Part shown: positions 3,611 to 64,000 of the stretch, one piece after another
How the letters are laid out: each line of letters begins with the position of its first letter
Position numbering within the stretch: the stretch's first letter is position 1
Assembly: GCA_017964005.1 (NCBI GenBank)
Contig: JAGCSR010000014.1
Location: 61,262 to 125,261 of the forward strand
Source: Clostridiales bacterium
GTDB taxonomy: Bacteria; Bacillota; Clostridia; Saccharofermentanales; Saccharofermentanaceae
DNA length: 64,000 bases
Reading direction: 5' to 3'
Translations under genes and position numbers: made by a program
Notes under the pieces: generated by a model
What the model was told of the DNA's origin: nothing
The model's input: the letters and a program-made list of their open reading frames with translations, nothing else
Database searches by the model: none

Positions 3611-4400
3611 CGTTCATACTCCCTGTCCTGTATCCTGCAAGATCTGCCGTAACGTATACAAATCCCGCTTTCCTGATCTCCTCTGTTATCTTTGTTCTGT
3701 TGTCCAAAACAAATAGAATGTCTTCCTGTGCTACCTCTATCCTTGCAAGATCTCCGTGTGCTCTTACCCTGTATTGCTTAAGCCCGAGATCTCTTAACAC
3801 GCCCTCTGCTCTCTCTATCTTACGGAGTGCTTCTTCGGTTATCTCCTGTCCGTAAGGGATCCTTGTTGCAAGGCATGCAAAAGACGGCATGTCCCATGTA
3901 TCAAGTCCCATTTCTTTCGACAGTTCCCGTATATCACTTTTCGACAAGCCTGCTTCTCTCAAAGGACTTCTGATCCCGAGTTCAGTAAGGGCCTTCATGC
4001 CCGGACGGTAATCACCTTCGTCATCGGTGTTCGTGCCGTCGGCAACATATTCCATACCTTTAGCGCGCGACTCTTCAGCCATCTTTGCGAAAATCTTTTT
4101 CTTGCAGTGATAGCAGCGGTCCTTGGGGTTGGACCTGATGAGATCATCTGACAGGACATCCGGAGTAATTACGATCTGATTTATCCCGTTCGTTTTACAG
4201 AAATCTTGAGCTGCCACCGCTTCATGCCGGGGTATCATCGGGGAGTCCGCTGTTATGGCAACGCACCTGTCGCCTAATACTTCCGATGCAACAGCGAGAA
4301 GAAAGGTGGAATCGACTCCTCCGGAGAATGCTACCGCGCACGATTCCATGTCACGGATGATGTTCTTAAGGCCTGTTAACTTATCACCGATTTCCGTCAT
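3597..4400 (-). CDS. larE: LarE, sacrificial sulfur transferase
   Basis: 267 aa from the chosen ATG. LarE is an ATP-dependent PP-loop enzyme that moves sulfur from its own cysteine to the bis-carboxylic acid mononucleotide made by LarB. The PP-loop SGGVDS lies at residues 26-31, an RCYHCKKKIF block near 95-104, and the PSFACLATRIPYG block places its Cys at residue 176, the position of the sacrificial cysteine in the L. plantarum enzyme. There is a GTG three codons upstream (4409) that is also in frame; ATG at 4400 is preferred for family fit. Overlaps larB by 17 bases. Confidence 0.92.
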   Translation of the reverse strand: MTEIGDKLTGLKNIIRDMESCAVAFSGGVDSTFLLAVASEVLGDRCVAITADSPMIPRHEAVAAQDFCKTNGINQIVITPDVLSDDLIRSNPKDRCYHCKKKIFAKMAEESRAKGMEYVADGTNTDDEGDYRPGMKALTELGIRSPLREAGLSKSDIRELSKEMGLDTWDMPSFACLATRIPYGQEITEEALRKIERAEGVLRDLGLKQYRVRAHGDLARIEVAQEDILFVLDNRTKITEEIRKAGFVYVTADLAGYRTGSMNDVLS

Positions 4401-5085
4401 AATCCTCACCCGGAGCTTTCACGGCAAGACGGTTGATCTGTATCGCAAGATATCCTGCGCAGTATCCGTTATCGATATTGACCGTGGCAACGCCGTTAGC
4501 GCAAGTTGAAAGCATCGCATGAAGAGCCGCCGTTCCTCCGGCTCCAACTCCGTATCCGACAGATGTGGGAACGCCGATCACGGGATTGGATACCAGACCT
4601 CCAATGACTGATGCCAGAGCTCCTTCCATACCCGCAACAGCGATGACGCAGTTGGCCTTTGCGATCTCATCTTTTACCGCGAGGAGACGGTGGATCCCGC
4701 TTACACCCACATCGTAGTAACGGAAGACCTTGCCTCCGAAGAATTCTGCAGTCTGGGCCGCTTCTTCGGCAACCGGAATATCAGCAGTGCCTGCGGTACA
4801 GACGGCGATATTGCCGATAAGAGTTTTGTCTGACTTTGAAGCCTTCAAAATTTTCGATGTCTTATCGTAGGTTATCTCAGGAATTACGGTCTTTACGGCT
4901 TCAAACTGCGCCGTTGAAGCGCGGGTGCCGAAGACTTCCCCGTACTCGTCAAAAATATTCTTATAGATCTTCTTTAAGTACTCTTCTTCTTTCCCCTCGC
5001 AGAAGACTACTTCGGCAAAACCCGTCCGCTCCTTGCGGTCCAGATCGAGCTTTGCAAATCCCAGATCCTTATATCCTTCGTTCAT
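4384..5085 (-). CDS. larB: LarB, pyridinium-3,5-biscarboxylic acid mononucleotide synthase
   Basis: 233 aa, close to the usual family length (about 246). LarB carboxylates and hydrolyses nicotinic acid adenine dinucleotide to begin pincer cofactor synthesis. The C-terminal half is PurE-like: the stretch from CTAGTADIPVAEEA through YYDVGVSGIHR and VIGVPTSVGYG is typical. ATG behind GGAGGAATGTT. First gene of the lar operon, with a good promoter 37 bases upstream. No larA is adjacent. Confidence 0.93.
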   Translation of the reverse strand: MNEGYKDLGFAKLDLDRKERTGFAEVVFCEGKEEEYLKKIYKNIFDEYGEVFGTRASTAQFEAVKTVIPEITYDKTSKILKASKSDKTLIGNIAVCTAGTADIPVAEEAAQTAEFFGGKVFRYYDVGVSGIHRLLAVKDEIAKANCVIAVAGMEGALASVIGGLVSNPVIGVPTSVGYGVGAGGTAALHAMLSTCANGVATVNIDNGYCAGYLAIQINRLAVKAPGEDYDGNR

Positions 5086-49025: not shown

Positions 49026-51443
49026 ATGACAGATTACATCCTGGCATTTATTATCCCTGCCTTACTCGGCGCCGCAGCTCTCTTAGTCCTGATACTGACG
49101 GGGCATAGATCCTATGCAGACAAAAAATGTGTTATAGGATGTGCGCTTATCCAGGCTGCGGGAATGGAGATCGCAACTCTTGCCCTGAGGCTGTGGGGGA
49201 ACCTTGATCTTTGGAACGATCATGTTATCCCTCTTGCGGGACTTGTTATCGTAAGCCTTATTACCACTGTTTCCGTTACACTCTCCGTGGTATCAGGTAA
49301 AGATAACATCCGCCGCCTGTTCAGGATCACGGGATATTCGGCTTTCATATTCCTTATGGCAGAATGCCTTATCTTCAATGCAAAGTGCTTCTCGGGAGAT
49401 AATGACCATAAGATAGCTGATAACATTCCTCTCACCGGCATAACGAGCCTGGAAGAGGACTCTTCTCATAAGTACATCCTCGCCGGCAATGAGATCGTGG
49501 CCTTCGGCAGCACATATCTTGTCTATGAAGATCTTCCCGGAACAGTACGTTATATCTCCGTTAATCAGGAACGTCAGGAATCCCCGGACAACAAAGCTTT
49601 CGTGATCACGGCGGAGATAAAGGATTCTTCCATGTCCGACTCTTTCATGACGATAGGAGCCAAGAGATCTTTCGGATATATAGGAAGATCGGATTTTGCC
49701 GTAAAGCCTGCCGAATCCGGATTCACTTTGGGTATCAAGATCGATCCTGCCAAGAATTCGGGATTCGCATACGACACCGCCACCATCGAAGCCGGCAACA
49801 AGACCGCGCCCCTTGTGGTCAAGTCCGTTACCCTCTGGGATGCAGCTCCTTATGAGTTCATGTTTTCGCGTGTCATCATACTGTGGCTTATAACCTTATG
49901 CATTGCATCAGTAATCCTCCTCAAGTTGTATAAGATCAGATACGACAGGACAAACCCTAAGCACCGCATCGTCATCGAACTCGTGGTCCTCGCATGCGCG
50001 GCATCCACATTCACCGTGCAGGGTCCGGACAAGAACATTGTCGAGTATCCTCTGACGCAGCCGGTGGATTATTACGATATCTATGTTCAGACTTTCGATG
50101 CTTTCCAGAAAGGTCAGCTCAATATCGATTTCCCGCCGCCGGAGGGTCTGTCTCAGATCAACAATCCCTACGATTTTTCCGAGCGAAAAGCTGCAGGCCT
50201 CGAAGACCAGTTCCTTTGGGACCGGGCCTTCTATAACGGAAAGTACTATTCCTACTTCGGAGCAGCCCCGATCTTTACCAACTACTATCCCGTCTATTGG
50301 GTAACCGGAAGCATTCCCACATGCGATACTGTCATAGCGGTAAACGGCGCCCTTGCCGCCCTGTTCCTGGCCCTTGCTCTTCTTGCAGTGATAAGGATCT
50401 ACTGTCCTGAAGCTAAGCTCCTTGCCGTTATTGCCTGCATCACTTCCACCAGCGCGCTGAGTTATATCCTGCTTCTGATGAATTACGGCTATATGTATAA
50501 TGTGGCCTGCATCACAGCCATGATGTTTATGGGCTTGAGTCTGTGGTCCGGATTTACCGCCACCGTATCGAAAGGCGCGGCAAGATATATTCTTTATGTC
50601 TTAAGCGGCATATCCCTGGGATTATGCGCCGGATCAAGACCCATAATAGCCGTAACCGCGGCGGTAATGCTGCCGAGATTCATAAACGTCCTTTTGGACA
50701 AAAAGCAGAAGATGTCGTCCCGGGTTCTTCAGGCATCGGCATTTGTGCTGCCGGTTATCGCCCTCGTATCCTGTATCCTTTGGTATAACTATGCGAGGTT
50801 CGGAAGCCCCATGGACTTCGGAGCAGCGTATCAGCTTACCGTAGGTGATATCCGCAATATGAAGCTTATCCCTTCGGCCTTCCCTCTCTCGGTATATTAC
50901 TTCTTCCTGATCCCTCCAAGGCAGACAGATCTGTTCCCCTATTTTGATCTGTCGAATAATATCCTGTCCAATGCAGAAGCATACCGCTACACAGTTCTTA
51001 ATATGGGACTTTGGAATTTCCCGTACATACTTCTTGCTTATATACTCGCAGTGCCTGCGCTGTTTAAGTCAGGCAGGAACAATAAGACTCTGTCAAACGG
51101 CACGTCGTTGCCGGAGCGCCGTTTTGCGATCGCCATAGCATTCATCCTGCCCCTCATCATCGCGTGGGCTGTTTACTGCATGGCGGGTGCCTGCTTCAGA
51201 TACTCCGGAGATATAACGACCCTTGTCATTATCGGCTGCGCTCTGATACTCGTCCAGTGTCCCTCCGACAGCAAGTTAAGATATACGGCCATAATAACAG
51301 CGGCCGCATTATCTGCGGCCGCCATGTGGCTTCTTGTTATCTACTATGGCGGAGTTGCCCAGACTCCCGAAGGAGACAACTTCCGCAACAATTTCCCTAA
51401 TGCCGTCGAATACATTGAGAAGCTGCTGGTATTCTGGCACTGA
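49026..51443 (+). CDS. Large membrane protein, GT-C glycosyltransferase-like
   Basis: 805 aa with more than ten hydrophobic helices. A first, smaller block (about 1-290) holds four helices and a soluble part; the second half has the arrangement DYYDIYVQTFDAF..NPYDF...DRAFYNGKYYSYFGAAPIFTNYYPVYW followed by many helices, as in GT-C fold transferases using polyprenyl-phosphate sugars. Acts at the outer face of the membrane, acceptor unknown. ATG behind AGAAGG, divergent from the GGDEF sensor. Confidence 0.65.
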   Translation: MTDYILAFIIPALLGAAALLVLILTGHRSYADKKCVIGCALIQAAGMEIATLALRLWGNLDLWNDHVIPLAGLVIVSLITTVSVTLSVVSGKDNIRRLFRITGYSAFIFLMAECLIFNAKCFSGDNDHKIADNIPLTGITSLEEDSSHKYILAGNEIVAFGSTYLVYEDLPGTVRYISVNQERQESPDNKAFVITAEIKDSSMSDSFMTIGAKRSFGYIGRSDFAVKPAESGFTLGIKIDPAKNSGFAYDTATIEAGNKTAPLVVKSVTLWDAAPYEFMFSRVIILWLITLCIASVILLKLYKIRYDRTNPKHRIVIELVVLACAASTFTVQGPDKNIVEYPLTQPVDYYDIYVQTFDAFQKGQLNIDFPPPEGLSQINNPYDFSERKAAGLEDQFLWDRAFYNGKYYSYFGAAPIFTNYYPVYWVTGSIPTCDTVIAVNGALAALFLALALLAVIRIYCPEAKLLAVIACITSTSALSYILLLMNYGYMYNVACITAMMFMGLSLWSGFTATVSKGAARYILYVLSGISLGLCAGSRPIIAVTAAVMLPRFINVLLDKKQKMSSRVLQASAFVLPVIALVSCILWYNYARFGSPMDFGAAYQLTVGDIRNMKLIPSAFPLSVYYFFLIPPRQTDLFPYFDLSNNILSNAEAYRYTVLNMGLWNFPYILLAYILAVPALFKSGRNNKTLSNGTSLPERRFAIAIAFILPLIIAWAVYCMAGACFRYSGDITTLVIIGCALILVQCPSDSKLRYTAIITAAALSAAAMWLLVIYYGGVAQTPEGDNFRNNFPNAVEYIEKLLVFWH

Positions 51444-51476: not shown

Positions 51477-52775
51477 TCAGATATTGTTGACGGTTCCTAT
51501 GAAGACCGGCTTATTGTTCTCGCAGTCTACGATCATGTAACCGAAGGGCCTGTCACAGATAACCTCTTTCCTCTCCTTCTCATCCGGCATTATCCCGGCG
51601 CATTCCACCGATACGGCGGTAACAGCCGCAGCCTTTGTCCCGTTCTCATCAAGATCTATAAAGGTCTTATGGATCACCTTGGATATAAACAGGTTCTGAT
51701 CTGTATGAGCGATTCCCGTAAAGTCAGCGCCGGCAGGATCGAAAGCATCCTTTATACCCATATCCTTCAAAGCATCGTTAAGAAGAACATCATAGTCATT
51801 CTTGAACTTGGGGATCTTGGTGGTGACATCGTAATCCGCAGTCTTTGACGCGATGAACTTGGCATAATCGTCACCGGTAAACTGCGTCATGAAGGAATTG
51901 GCGTCCGTATTCTCATCCTTTGGGAGGATGGCGACAAAACAGTATCTTCCTCCCTCATACATCTTGGAGAATCCGATGGCTTTGTCTGATTCGTAATAGT
52001 AAGGTGATGCTTCAGTCATCATCATGGCATCGCCGTTGCCGTTCGTTCCTCTGAAAGTTCCGGGAGTTACCTGGTACGACTCGTACTTTTCTTCCCAGGC
52101 GCCTTCAAATGCGATGGCATTTACGAGGAATGCCGCTGTGGAAGGATCGATGTTATCGATGACCTTGTCGATCATTCCTTTGGTCTTCTCGTTTACCCAT
52201 TTATTGATATCGGATTTGGCTCCGTCATCGAACTTCATCGACTTGGCTTTGGCTTCATAAAGCTTCTCCACGAATTCGATATATTCGGGATTCATCTTAT
52301 CCCCTATCAATTCCTTATTGGACCAGATAGCATTAGCTACGGAGAACTTTACATCCTCGGAAGCATTAAGATCCTTCATCCATTGAGAAGCGAAGGCCTG
52401 CTGCTGTTCAGGTGTAAGATCTCCGCCTCCGATCACCTTGTTGATCTCAGCCAGAGTATTCTTGCAGGCACCTGCATCGGCAAGATCCAAAGCGAACATT
52501 ACGGACGCGGGGGACACCATAACATTAACGCCTTTATCCTCCGACTTTGCCACAGTCGAAAAAAGCTTAAGAGCGAATTCGTTATAGCCGTCTGCTGCCG
52601 CCTTCTGATTATAATCGGGGGATTCACCCTTACTGATCAAAGCTAAGTTTACTTCAGCCTTAGGCTCGGCAATATTTTTTATCGGACGGTCTCCGCCGTT
52701 GCCGGAACACCCTGCCAATCCTCCGAGGAGCATGCTCCCTGCCAGGACTGAAGTTAATAATTTCTTGGTTTTCAT
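51477..52775 (-). CDS. Serpin, membrane-anchored lipoprotein form
   Basis: 432 aa. Signal peptide with lipobox LAGC (about residues 20-23). The rest is a full serpin: VNVMVSPASVMFALDLADAGA, FLVNAIAFEGAWEEKY, the hinge DENGTKAAAVTAVS and the reactive-loop segment before ICDRPFGYMI and PVFIGTVNNI. Serpins trap serine or cysteine proteases; bacterial ones in gut species act on host or own proteases. ATG at 52775 has GGAGGTGAGG at good spacing, while a GTG three codons earlier overlaps that site. Confidence 0.95.
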   Translation of the reverse strand: MKTKKLLTSVLAGSMLLGGLAGCSGNGGDRPIKNIAEPKAEVNLALISKGESPDYNQKAAADGYNEFALKLFSTVAKSEDKGVNVMVSPASVMFALDLADAGACKNTLAEINKVIGGGDLTPEQQQAFASQWMKDLNASEDVKFSVANAIWSNKELIGDKMNPEYIEFVEKLYEAKAKSMKFDDGAKSDINKWVNEKTKGMIDKVIDNIDPSTAAFLVNAIAFEGAWEEKYESYQVTPGTFRGTNGNGDAMMMTEASPYYYESDKAIGFSKMYEGGRYCFVAILPKDENTDANSFMTQFTGDDYAKFIASKTADYDVTTKIPKFKNDYDVLLNDALKDMGIKDAFDPAGADFTGIAHTDQNLFISKVIHKTFIDLDENGTKAAAVTAVSVECAGIMPDEKERKEVICDRPFGYMIVDCENNKPVFIGTVNNI

Positions 52776-52862
52776 TATCCTCACCTCCAGTGGTTTCTAC
52801 TATAATATACAAGTGATGATCCAATATTGTTGCAAGATCGGATTTTTTTCGGAGGACTATAT

Positions 52863-56193: not shown

Positions 56194-56300
56194 GATGCTA
56201 AGTCTCCTTTCGCGAAAACAAGAGGGTTATATTTTCGGAAATATATATATTATAATATCACAAGACCAAGACCGGTGACGAACATCAGGGGGAGTGGTAA

Positions 56301-57806
56301 ATGTCATCTTCGAAGAAGAAAACGCGTAAGAAACACGACATCAGGAAGATCATCCTTCGGATGGTCCTCATTATCTTCCTGCTTACGGTTGTAATCCCGT
56401 TCATCGGCGGTATCGGTTTCTACCGGTTCATGTTCGGCAAGAGATATGACCCCGACGACGAGGTCTTATATTCCGCCGAAGACTTCGAAGGGCTGTCCTG
56501 CGTAAGGAAAGATCTTACCGGCAACAGAGGACAGAACCTGGCAGGATATCTGTATTACGGTTCCGAGTATGACAGCGAAGATATCAGATCGATCCCTCAG
56601 CATTATAAGGGAATAGTTATATTCGCCCACGGACTCGGCGCAAGTCAGGCGGCATATGTTCAGATATATGACTATCTCGTTGACCGTGACCTTCTCGTAT
56701 TTGCCTACGATGCCACAGGAACGGCGACCAGCGAAGGATCTTCCATCAGGGGATTCCCTCAGGGAACCGAGGATATGAACAGCGCCATAGACTTTGTCTA
56801 TGACAATATAACCGGAAGGGATTATCCGGTCGCGACCGCAGGACACTCCGCGGGAGCTTTCGCGGCATGCTCCGTCCTGGGGCTTCATCCCGAGGTCCGG
56901 GCAGTTCTGTGCATTGCCGGGTTCAACAGTTCCCCGGATTACATCGCGGCACTCGCAAGACCATACGCGGGTCCTGCCATCGAACCTCAAAAACCCCTGA
57001 TCTCATTTTACGAATACTTCCTGTTCGGCAACACCATCTACTATACAGCCCAAAAAGGATTCGAGAGTTCAGATGCTAAGATCATGGCTGTTTATTCCGA
57101 TACAGACAAAACTGTTCCGGCATCGGGCGGCATCGATATCTGGAAGAGATCTTCCCTTCCGGAAGATAAGATCTTATATTATCCGGTAACGGGAAGAGCC
57201 CACGGCGATGTATGGCGCAGCGACTCAAAAGAAGGTGCCGATACGGCAATGCTCGATAAGTTCTGCGGCGTCTTCGATTCCGCGATATCTCAAAAAGCTT
57301 CCGTACCTTCCCCTGCCAAAACATGGGATCCGGTCTTATATGTCATTATCATATTGGGAGCTGCCGCGGTATTTGCCGTTATCCTGCTCATCGTAAGGCA
57401 CAGAGCCAAGATATTCCGACTGTCTTACATCGAAGGCGTCGATAAGATGGACGGAAGAGACTTCGAACTGTGGTGCGCTGATTTCCTTAAACACAACGGA
57501 TTCTCCCGGGTCGAAGTCACATCCGAGTCCCGGGATAACGGCGTTGATATCCTGTGCCGTAAAGACGGACAGACCTATGCCGTGCAGTGTAAGAGAATGG
57601 AATCGTCCGTTCCCAACAAAGCCGTTCAGGAAGTATATACCGGCATGGAGATGTACGGATGCGACCGCGCAGCTGTCATTACCAATAATCATTTCTCGCC
57701 GGCAGCATGTGATACCGCAGAGAAGACCGGTGTTGAATTATGGGATCGGGATTGGATCTTAAGCAGGATCTCAAAGGATCGGAAGGCCGGTGAAGACGAT
57801 GAATAA
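56301..57806 (+). CDS. Exported alpha/beta hydrolase fused to a cytoplasmic Mrr-type nuclease domain
   Basis: 501 aa. A basic N-terminus and membrane helix (about 18-40) put residues 45-335 outside: an alpha/beta hydrolase with nucleophile elbow GHSAG (Ser183), candidate Asp 267 or 269 and His301 (RAHGD). A second helix (345-366) is followed by RHRAK and a C-terminal domain (380-490) with the restriction-endonuclease-like Mrr_cat motifs: GRDFELW, RDNGVDI (Asp416) and the QCKR block (Gln429, Lys431), then VITNNHFSPAA. The reading frame is uninterrupted, so it is a real fusion, not a sequencing join. ATG behind GGGGAGTGG. Overlaps the next gene by eight bases. Confidence 0.85.
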   Translation: MSSSKKKTRKKHDIRKIILRMVLIIFLLTVVIPFIGGIGFYRFMFGKRYDPDDEVLYSAEDFEGLSCVRKDLTGNRGQNLAGYLYYGSEYDSEDIRSIPQHYKGIVIFAHGLGASQAAYVQIYDYLVDRDLLVFAYDATGTATSEGSSIRGFPQGTEDMNSAIDFVYDNITGRDYPVATAGHSAGAFAACSVLGLHPEVRAVLCIAGFNSSPDYIAALARPYAGPAIEPQKPLISFYEYFLFGNTIYYTAQKGFESSDAKIMAVYSDTDKTVPASGGIDIWKRSSLPEDKILYYPVTGRAHGDVWRSDSKEGADTAMLDKFCGVFDSAISQKASVPSPAKTWDPVLYVIIILGAAAVFAVILLIVRHRAKIFRLSYIEGVDKMDGRDFELWCADFLKHNGFSRVEVTSESRDNGVDILCRKDGQTYAVQCKRMESSVPNKAVQEVYTGMEMYGCDRAAVITNNHFSPAACDTAEKTGVELWDRDWILSRISKDRKAGEDDE

Positions 57807-59577
57807 AAACAATATTGCTGCGGACCGGGCCCGTACATTTTACATATGCATAGTCTCTGTTCTGAGCTTTGCGGCGGCATTCTATATTCTGGTACTGAAT
57901 ATCTTTACCACCTCGAGAGTCCTTTGTGATGAGCTTGAATTCAACTTCTACTGCGGCGACATATTCTTCATCAATATCCTGCTGATAGCAGCAGGTCTTT
58001 GCCTTTGTGTCCTTATCCGTAAGTCCGGGGTATATCCTAAGATAAGAGATTTCTTCAACAGAGGAAGGAATCTTCTCATATCCAAGCTCATCCTCCTGTC
58101 TTTGATCGCGGCAGCAGGTATTGTCATCATATCCATTTCCGACTACATACAGGTATTCGATTCCAGATCCATCCTCGATGCCGTGGAAGGACTTCATACC
58201 GGAGACTATTCGGCATTCCTCCATCTCGGATATCTTGATATCTATCCTCATCTGAACGGCCTTGTGATCTTCTACTATCTGCTGAGCTTTATCACGGGCG
58301 ATAAACTGGAGACCGTGATAATGCTCATTAATCTTGCTTTCCTGGTGCTCCTCTACGGCGAACTGTCATCCATCGGCAAAAGGCTGGGACTCGGGGCAGT
58401 CGGGCAGCTTCTGATACTTTTGGCAGGACTTATCTATCTTCCTCTCTTCTTTTATGTCCTGATAGTTTACGGCAATATAGAAGGTCTTGCCTTAAGCGCG
58501 CTGACAGCCCGCCTCCTGATAGATCTTGCCAAAGCTTCCGGCACACGCAGATGTATCTTTACCGGTATTGCGGCTGTAGTATGCGCAGGGCTTGCGTGCA
58601 TCTTCAAGCAGAACAGCTTCGTAATGATAATGGCTCTCATCATATGGCTGTTCTTCAGATGCGTCTCCTCCAAGAAGTTCCTGAGGCTGATCCCCATTGC
58701 AGGTCTTATCCTGGTCATGGCTGCATCCTCTTCTGTTCCCGGAGCTATACTGTCCCGCGTAACCGGATATAAGACACAGGGCACAAATTATATGTCCTAT
58801 CTTGCCATGGGAGCATCGGAAGACACCCAGAACTTTGCCGGCGGCTATAACGGCTTCAACGCCTTCTCCTTCGCGGAACTGGACGGTGATAAGAAGGCCC
58901 AGGGAGAGGTTGCGGCCGCAATGTATAAAGAGCGGGTCAATGTATTTCTTTCCGATCCGGCCTACATGCTGAACTTCATGACACGCAAACAGGTCCATCA
59001 ATGGTCGGACCCGACATACCGGGCCAACAGGAGCATTCAGGTCATGGAAGAAGGGCCTTCGAATTCCTCTCTCATGCATAACCTTACCGGACGAATGTCA
59101 ACCTATATCCAAAGTTATATATATGAACCCTTCCAGCTGTTGGTATGGGCCGGTGTCGCTCTTTTTATCTGGATCAACTGCAAAAGACGGGATGACTGGT
59201 TTTTCGACGGCCTCATATTCCCTCTTATGTTCCTGGGAGGATTCATTTTCCATACATTCTGGGAAGCCAAGTCCCCTTATGCCTACCCTTACTTTATGGT
59301 CCTCATTCCGGTGGCAGTACTGGGATTACGGGACTTTGCCGTCAAAGCAAAAGATCTTCGTTCCGATATAAAGAAGACAGACCTTAAGTCCTTAAACTTC
59401 AGCTGGTCAATGAGATTTACGATGGCAGCCGTTACCGTGATCCTTCTTATGGCAGCCGTTGCCGGCCTTTCTTCGATGAGAGTCCAGCTGTCGGAAGACG
59501 AAGCCCAATATAGAAAATACGCCCAGACGGGCGTATTTGTTCAGTCAGATAACAAAGATTCTTCAGGTATCAGTTAA
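57799..59577 (+). CDS. Polytopic membrane protein, GT-C/PMT-like
   Basis: 592 aa with about 10 to 12 helices and a large soluble segment near 340-430. Arrangement resembles PMT_2/GT39-type GT-C transferases (helix-loop with DELEFNFYC near the N-terminus and HLGYLDIYPHLNGL around residue 145), which use lipid-linked sugars outside the membrane. No certain catalytic residues. Start ATG at 57799 overlaps the hydrolase-nuclease gene by eight bases (GTG at 57790 also possible). Overlaps the convergent NlpC gene by eight bases. Confidence 0.65.
   Translation: MNKNNIAADRARTFYICIVSVLSFAAAFYILVLNIFTTSRVLCDELEFNFYCGDIFFINILLIAAGLCLCVLIRKSGVYPKIRDFFNRGRNLLISKLILLSLIAAAGIVIISISDYIQVFDSRSILDAVEGLHTGDYSAFLHLGYLDIYPHLNGLVIFYYLLSFITGDKLETVIMLINLAFLVLLYGELSSIGKRLGLGAVGQLLILLAGLIYLPLFFYVLIVYGNIEGLALSALTARLLIDLAKASGTRRCIFTGIAAVVCAGLACIFKQNSFVMIMALIIWLFFRCVSSKKFLRLIPIAGLILVMAASSSVPGAILSRVTGYKTQGTNYMSYLAMGASEDTQNFAGGYNGFNAFSFAELDGDKKAQGEVAAAMYKERVNVFLSDPAYMLNFMTRKQVHQWSDPTYRANRSIQVMEEGPSNSSLMHNLTGRMSTYIQSYIYEPFQLLVWAGVALFIWINCKRRDDWFFDGLIFPLMFLGGFIFHTFWEAKSPYAYPYFMVLIPVAVLGLRDFAVKAKDLRSDIKKTDLKSLNFSWSMRFTMAAVTVILLMAAVAGLSSMRVQLSEDEAQYRKYAQTGVFVQSDNKDSSGIS

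Positions 59578-60975: not shown

Positions 60976-64000
<3,025 letters not shown>

Follow-up and report, generated by a model that had tools for sequence, protein, structure and literature searches.

An alpha/beta hydrolase fused to an Mrr-type nuclease domain in a clade of Saccharofermentanaceae: a candidate membrane-tethered nuclease

The 64,000-nucleotide stretch analyzed here (the window; positions 61,262 to 125,261 of contig JAGCSR010000014.1, from a Clostridiales bacterium of the Saccharofermentanaceae) encodes, at 56301-57806 of its forward strand, a protein in which an alpha/beta hydrolase is followed by an Mrr-type nuclease domain. The gene for this fusion is real, which confirms the initial observation, and its architecture is conserved, restricted to one clade, new as far as we searched, and built on a widespread theme of tethered Mrr domains. 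We tentatively propose that the fusion is a membrane-tethered nuclease that cuts foreign DNA at its entry, with the esterase-like hydrolase, predicted to face outwards, acting as the anchor. This proposal draws on a topology, a nuclease activity, and an esterase activity that we infer for the protein.

Architecture, predicted topology and conservation

The frame, of 501 codons, is unbroken, as the original prediction had it. The first part of its product matches the Pfam family Hydrolase_4 (PF12146) at 56.6 bits, against a cut-off of 27, and the C-terminal part matches Mrr_cat (PF04471) at 102.1 bits, against a cut-off of 21. The hydrolase part has the score, the fold, and the Ser-Asp-His triad of Hydrolase_4, with Ser183 lying within a GHSAG motif; in the Mrr part, E389, D416, Q429, and K431 fit the pattern E...D...QxK, which we take to be the catalytic motif of Mrr_cat. 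The catalytic roles of S183/D269/H301 and of these four residues are presumed from our understanding of the two families. Judged by score and residues, the fusion belongs to both Mrr_cat and the alpha/beta hydrolases. The protein also matches NA-iREase1 (PF22722), which we take to be an inactive restriction-endonuclease fold with its catalytic residues lost. This second match, at 40.1 bits, is above the cut-off of 27, yet far below the Mrr_cat score, and we do not place the fusion in NA-iREase1 because catalytic-type residues are present. Likewise, Mrr_N, presumably the N-terminal DNA-recognition domain of Escherichia coli Mrr, has no Pfam match in the fusion up to an E value of 0.1, and hence the layout is not that of the E. 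coli type IV enzyme.

Eight protein clusters, namely, the window's own and seven others at 70-83% identity to it, share the full architecture. Hydrolase_4 and Mrr_cat are matched in every member, in the order originally predicted, and the seven catalytic-type residues named above are invariant in all eight. The recurrence of the architecture in seven further clusters makes chance or misassembly very unlikely, and on this ground we reject an assembly or frameshift artefact; the retained residues similarly appear to rule out an inactive Mrr domain. The Mrr domain is the most conserved part of the protein (mean pairwise identity of 85%, 80 of 109 columns invariant), followed by the hydrolase (76%, 152 of 290 columns) and residues 1-40, which include helix 1 (65%). 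Of the internal parts, the linker (23%) and helix 2 (47%) vary most, and the last 13 residues stand at 38%, while the stretch immediately inside the membrane is well conserved in the fusions. The ratio of nonsynonymous to synonymous substitution rates, computed by the Nei-Gojobori method (NG86), is 0.039-0.113 in the seven of nine comparisons that were computable; because synonymous sites are saturated, these values are a rough sign that the fusion is under purifying selection.

A hydropathy scan predicts the second helix in all eight members, weakly in P0002 (1.71 against a threshold of 1.6). The net charge before helix 1 is +6 to +8 in seven of them, the eighth (P0007) being without that stretch, and the charge after helix 1 is -1 to -3 in all eight. 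Around helix 2 the flanks carry +1 to -3 before and +3 to +4 after, again in every member. These charges agree with the positive-inside rule and predict, as had been proposed, that the hydrolase lies outside and the Mrr domain inside the cell. An AlphaFold2 model based on a 92-row alignment has a mean predicted local distance difference test (pLDDT) score of 90.3 (it replaces a poor model, with a pLDDT of 45.9, from an 8-row alignment) and predicts that helix 2 continues directly into the Mrr domain as a single helix spanning residues 344-381. Comparison of the model with folds in the PDB listed matches to hydrolases only and so scarcely tested the Mrr fold; by sequence, the Mrr part has one weak PDB match, AF1548 (E value of 0.012). 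In a viral fold library, the named entries among the best 50 matches include hydrolases as well as restriction endonucleases, each under an entry of its own.

Distribution and relatives of the two halves

Among 85 genomes of the genus, 39 match the fusion protein at an E value of 1e-5: three carry the fusion, 22 have a separate hydrolase relative, and 17 have a separate Mrr relative, three of these genomes having both. The same three fusions were recovered from 188 genomes of the order (alignment query, E value of 1e-70), and two of the three were recovered from 391 genomes of the class, drawn evenly and overlapping the genus and order samples (E value of 1e-68); limits of this stringency could miss weaker or shorter fusions. 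The fusion is also found in two public records of metagenome-assembled genomes, Clostridiales bacterium RGIG8261, from water-buffalo rumen, and Saccharofermentans sp. RUI411, which we take to be the same genomes as two of the above (G029 and G049) rather than additional ones.

In all three fusion genomes the gene order is beta-helix/SLH protein, fusion, NlpC/P60 protein, rpoC. Nine rpoC regions from genomes outside the clade have no fusion, hydrolase, or Mrr gene near rpoC and the NlpC/P60 gene. The NlpC/P60 proteins of the other fusion genomes are 82-84% identical to that of the window. Outside these genomes, the protein next in score shares 62% identity, and the top identity, 65%, comes from G035 and spans residues 101-429 alone. 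Judged by this protein, the three fusion genomes are mutually closest relatives. In a tree of 99 hydrolase rows, which leaves out 11 others (two Mrr-only and nine long-branched), the eight fusions form one clade with a support of 100 and a long stem. The fusion is lineage specific and, taking the single clade and the mutually closest genomes together, most likely arose once. The nearest comparable hydrolases, such as P0010 and P0016, are stand-alone and helix anchored; they share the N-terminal helix and the triad with the fusion, at about 25-40% identity in local alignments, but stop after the hydrolase, whereas the fusion continues into the Mrr domain.

The two genes could have been joined on that one occasion, with the domains acting separately ever since, and the separate hydrolase and Mrr genes elsewhere in the genus are consistent with such an uncoupled history. 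However, the join has persisted across the divergence of the eight clusters with both sets of residues kept, and we consider this explanation very unlikely. Separate homologues, or catalytic residues lacking conservation, had been named in the original prediction as findings that would refute it, and the outcome is divided: separate genes do occur elsewhere in the genus, but within the clade all eight clusters have the domains fused and the seven residues retained.

The Mrr half points to a much larger set of proteins. The Mrr region of P0115, used as a query, has 1268 relatives; among the best 120 of these, a predicted helix lies before the Mrr domain in 89 and after it in three, and 28 have none. 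In viral contigs we found 51 loci with Mrr relatives, some near-identical to one another; 33 have a helix before the Mrr domain (one of them also after it) and 18 have no helix. None of the 51 viral-contig loci has a pair of helices that precede the Mrr domain and are separated by over 60 residues. Among the best 120 relatives, P0182 alone has such a pair, and this protein, whose Mrr start is atypical, is possibly chimeric. The helix-then-Mrr proteins annotated as restriction endonucleases (P0115, P0093, and VUE37434.1 of Roseburia phage Jekyll) resemble the fusion in that a predicted membrane helix precedes the C-terminal Mrr_cat domain, in a common LWDRD end motif, and in Mrr parts that are 50-53% identical; unlike the fusion, they have no exported enzyme between two helices.

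A tree of 36 Mrr domains likewise groups the fusions as one clade (support 100/98). The half of the tree that contains them also holds P0093, P0095, P0102, P0114, P0115-P0117, and P0121, in which the Mrr domain comes after the helices, and P0101, in which it comes first; the fork between the halves is moderately supported (84/88), and P0095, nearest to the fusions, is weakly placed (81/79). Among the genus's own stand-alone Mrr genes, the 16 that were read have the Mrr domain first and the helices last and form a clade of their own (100/98) in the opposite half. We accordingly reject these stand-alone genes as the source of the Mrr half.

Seven phage records matched, four of them unannotated. 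The three annotated relatives are all of the helix-then-Mrr type, and each has an integrase gene at a distance of about 1 kb: that of Jekyll adjoins a putative Xre-like antitoxin and a putative toxin, that of Moorella phage MCACPph1 has a transcriptional regulator on one side and the integrase on the other, and the third is from bajarodcaudo virus 3. A position so close to the integrase (L114, L115, and L116) suggests superinfection exclusion, and we read the helix-tethered Mrr domains near temperate-phage integrases as likely barriers to incoming DNA. A further relative, which has no predicted helices, is encoded on plasmid pCY186 of Butyrivibrio proteoclasticus (L117); its Mrr-family gene, at 3971-4753, is embedded in a type I restriction operon, with the S gene on one side and the R gene on the other.

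Other arrangements were seen among the Mrr relatives. P0116, P0163, P0188, P0203, and others carry an FtsK_gamma domain (C-terminal in P0116) and hence are possibly directed by chromosome-polarity sequences. P0187, P0200, P0213, P0234, and P0235, which have no predicted helices, combine an N-terminal Mrr domain with PF13540 or PF25390, which we take to be RCC1-type repeats.

Tethering as a possible source of specificity

Cutting of incoming DNA at the membrane is a recently recognized form of discrimination between self and foreign DNA, exemplified by SNIPE and Zorya. The SNIPE nuclease is bound to the membrane and cleaves phage DNA while it is being injected, and its tether prevents damage to host DNA (PMC13190303). 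Like the fusion, it is a single protein with a membrane helix and a cytoplasmic nuclease (predicted in the case of the fusion); the part of that report drawn on here describes variable N-terminal regions and a GIY-YIG nuclease with DUF4041, with a helix near the N terminus and no outer enzyme domain (PMC13190303). Neither DUF4041 nor GIY-YIG is among the Pfam matches of the fusion up to an E value of 0.1; the fusion is thus not SNIPE, and the two would be comparable in principle. A review places Zorya, Kiwa, and SNIPE together under membrane localization (PMC12904381). According to the sections cited, type I Zorya likewise targets phage DNA at the membrane, and its nuclease, like that of the fusion, is Mrr-like; it differs in that its ZorD protein couples the nuclease to an SNF2-type helicase and is recruited by the ZorAB motor (PMC11890865, PMC12904381). 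Screening with PADLOC found no ZorA/ZorB motor genes and no SNF2 helicase in the fusion or its 10 neighbors, so the system is not Zorya, and the ZorD profile matches the fusion with its Mrr end alone (positions 942-1058 of 1071). Four PDC-S02 profiles also match the Mrr part only, at best with 35.4 bits over positions 238-341 of 390; as none matches across its whole length, we do not assign the fusion to PDC-S02. If PDC-S02 is nevertheless Mrr-type, as these matches suggest, then the 2715 PDC-S02 annotations given in the cited part of a rumen survey (PMC13356809) suggest that Mrr-type candidates are common in the rumen. A large survey of conflict systems, in the portion used here, names Mrr-like effectors and alpha/beta-hydrolase domains, though not as such a single protein (PMC7159879), and our searches of open-access PMC papers yielded no description of a hydrolase-Mrr fusion.

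With these parallels in mind, we propose that the predicted membrane helices would tether the Mrr nuclease at the inner face of the membrane, where it would cut foreign DNA as it enters the cell. Tethering would confine cutting to DNA located at the membrane, so that the chromosome would be spared; specificity would come from location and not from a signal passed through helix 2. The hydrolase would retain an envelope activity of its own and at the same time keep the nuclease at the surface. In favor of the proposal are the kinship of the Mrr half with helix-then-Mrr proteins, including phage-encoded ones close to an integrase, the high conservation of the Mrr domain, and the retained catalytic-type residues. 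The low identity of the linker and helix 2 is more easily reconciled with a tether than with a tuned relay. If this proposal is correct, it would add the Mrr fold to membrane-localized cutting, in a single-protein version, and show that a nuclease of this type can incorporate an entire exported enzyme. Further, helix-before-Mrr proteins appear numerous and, as a class, would be testable as barriers to entry or superinfection.

A more elaborate possibility is a transmembrane receptor-nuclease, in which an ester of surface or phage origin is the ligand or substrate of the outer hydrolase, helix 2 relays its binding or cleavage, and the Mrr domain is switched on. The retention of both active-site residue sets, the modeled continuity of helix 2 with the Mrr domain, and the conservation of the stretch just inside the membrane would all suit it, but the poor conservation of the linker and helix 2 counts against it, as does the near absence of a large outer domain from the helix-before-Mrr relatives (one doubtful case among the 120 and none among the 51); we regard it as doubtful. 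Distinctly doubtful is its specific form, in which a serine hydrolase facing the outside senses or processes a surface ester, for instance one altered or displayed by an incoming phage, and thereby licenses the Mrr domain to cut the DNA that follows. Outside-to-inside signaling by the fusion is possible but unsupported. The intact triad leaves room for a sensor role, and the catalytic serine offers a clean test of tether versus sensor.

Several observations weigh against the tethered-nuclease proposal. Tethering alone does not explain why an active-type hydrolase is retained. No predicted helix is present in the 18 viral relatives noted above or in the plasmid relative, and an integrase was detected near only five of the 51 viral relatives, by an insensitive test with three integrase queries. 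A mobile origin of the fusion is not borne out: it was not found in viral contigs searched with two short peptide patterns, the seven phage records align with the Mrr part alone and none matches at 80% coverage, and none of 216 plasmid records covers 80% of the fusion, the 12 rows read all matching the Mrr part. Defense genes are usually patchy and mobile; the fusion, by comparison, occupies one conserved chromosomal site with the NlpC/P60 gene and rpoC in all three genomes and looks vertically inherited. None of the 10 neighboring proteins matches PADLOC at an E value of 1e-5. The fixed position, the vertical inheritance, and the lack of defense neighbors together count against a role in defense. 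The protein could instead be a housekeeping envelope enzyme whose main activity is that of the hydrolase, on a lipid, polysaccharide, or feruloyl-type ester, with the Mrr domain processing DNA at the membrane for some cellular end other than defense, for example DNA that was taken up or damaged. We hold this to be somewhat unlikely, given that the phage and plasmid Mrr relatives lie in mobile or restriction contexts and that Mrr families include known restriction enzymes.

Genomic neighborhood and feature coordinates

The coordinates of the fusion, its parts, and the overlapping downstream gene are collected in Table 1. A promoter scan of the sequence gave fewer sites than shuffled sequence did, and its result was not used.

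Table 1. Positions in the window of the fusion gene, its predicted parts and the adjoining gene
Feature	Position	Strand	Basis
Ribosome-binding-like sequence AGGGGGAG, 5' of the ATG	56287..56294	+	Read directly
Gene for the 501-aa fusion (in order, helix 1, the alpha/beta hydrolase, helix 2, and Mrr_cat)	56301..57806	+	Open reading frame (ORF), Pfam, hydropathy, relatives
Predicted membrane helix 1, residues 17-35, N-side positively charged	56349..56405	+	Hydropathy, model, charge count
Alpha/beta-hydrolase domain, residues 41-330, predicted outside	56421..57290	+	Pfam, model, fold comparison, conservation
Presumed hydrolase triad: Ser183, Asp269, His301	56847-56849, 57105-57107, 57201-57203	+	Family knowledge plus conservation
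Predicted membrane helix 2, residues 347-365 (within one model helix, residues 344-381)	57339..57395	+	Hydropathy, AlphaFold2
Mrr_cat domain, residues 380-488, predicted cytoplasmic	57438..57764	+	Pfam, model, conservation
Mrr residues: Glu389, Asp416, Gln429-x-Lys431	57465-57467, 57546-57548, 57585-57593	+	Conservation
Downstream gene for a GT-C-like, multi-helix membrane protein, overlapping the fusion by 8 bases	57799..59577	+	ORF list, hydropathy, start read directly

The GT-C-like gene, which lies between the fusion and the NlpC/P60 gene, had been put forward as a possible partner. The eight-base overlap then noted is exact if the gene starts at the possible ATG at 57799; a mechanical ORF list starts it at GTG 57790. 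Its product has no Pfam match up to an E value of 0.1. A functional unit of the fusion and this membrane protein would agree with the overlaps in two of the three fusion genomes (8 bases here, 11 in G049) and with four other genomes of the genus in which a stand-alone Mrr gene adjoins, or lies one gene from, a GT-C-like homologue. However, those Mrr genes are of a different subfamily, six of 10 close homologues outside the fusion clade (36-42% identical) have no Mrr neighbor, and G029 has an intact fusion, but the GT-C-like gene is absent at the locus and was not found genome-wide at an E value of 1e-20. We therefore reject it as an obligate partner and judge a unit of any kind most improbable. 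Given this absence and the lack of PADLOC matches among the neighbors, neither a defense island nor an obligate partner was found; the interpretation in the original prediction is partly supported, in that these two elements of the envisaged defense or signaling unit find no support, while its domains, their order, the predicted topology, and the residues stand.

In the four genus genomes just mentioned (G055, L107; G050, L109; G022, L110; and G071, L111), the stand-alone gene is of the Mrr-then-helix type and divergent from the GT-C-like homologue. As these genes belong to the other Mrr subfamily, this is possibly a second, independent pairing. Elsewhere in the window, a gene for a GT-C-like membrane protein adjoins a serpin gene (49026-51443 and 51477-52784), and tandem duplicates of both are present in a relative (L023, 3-6513).
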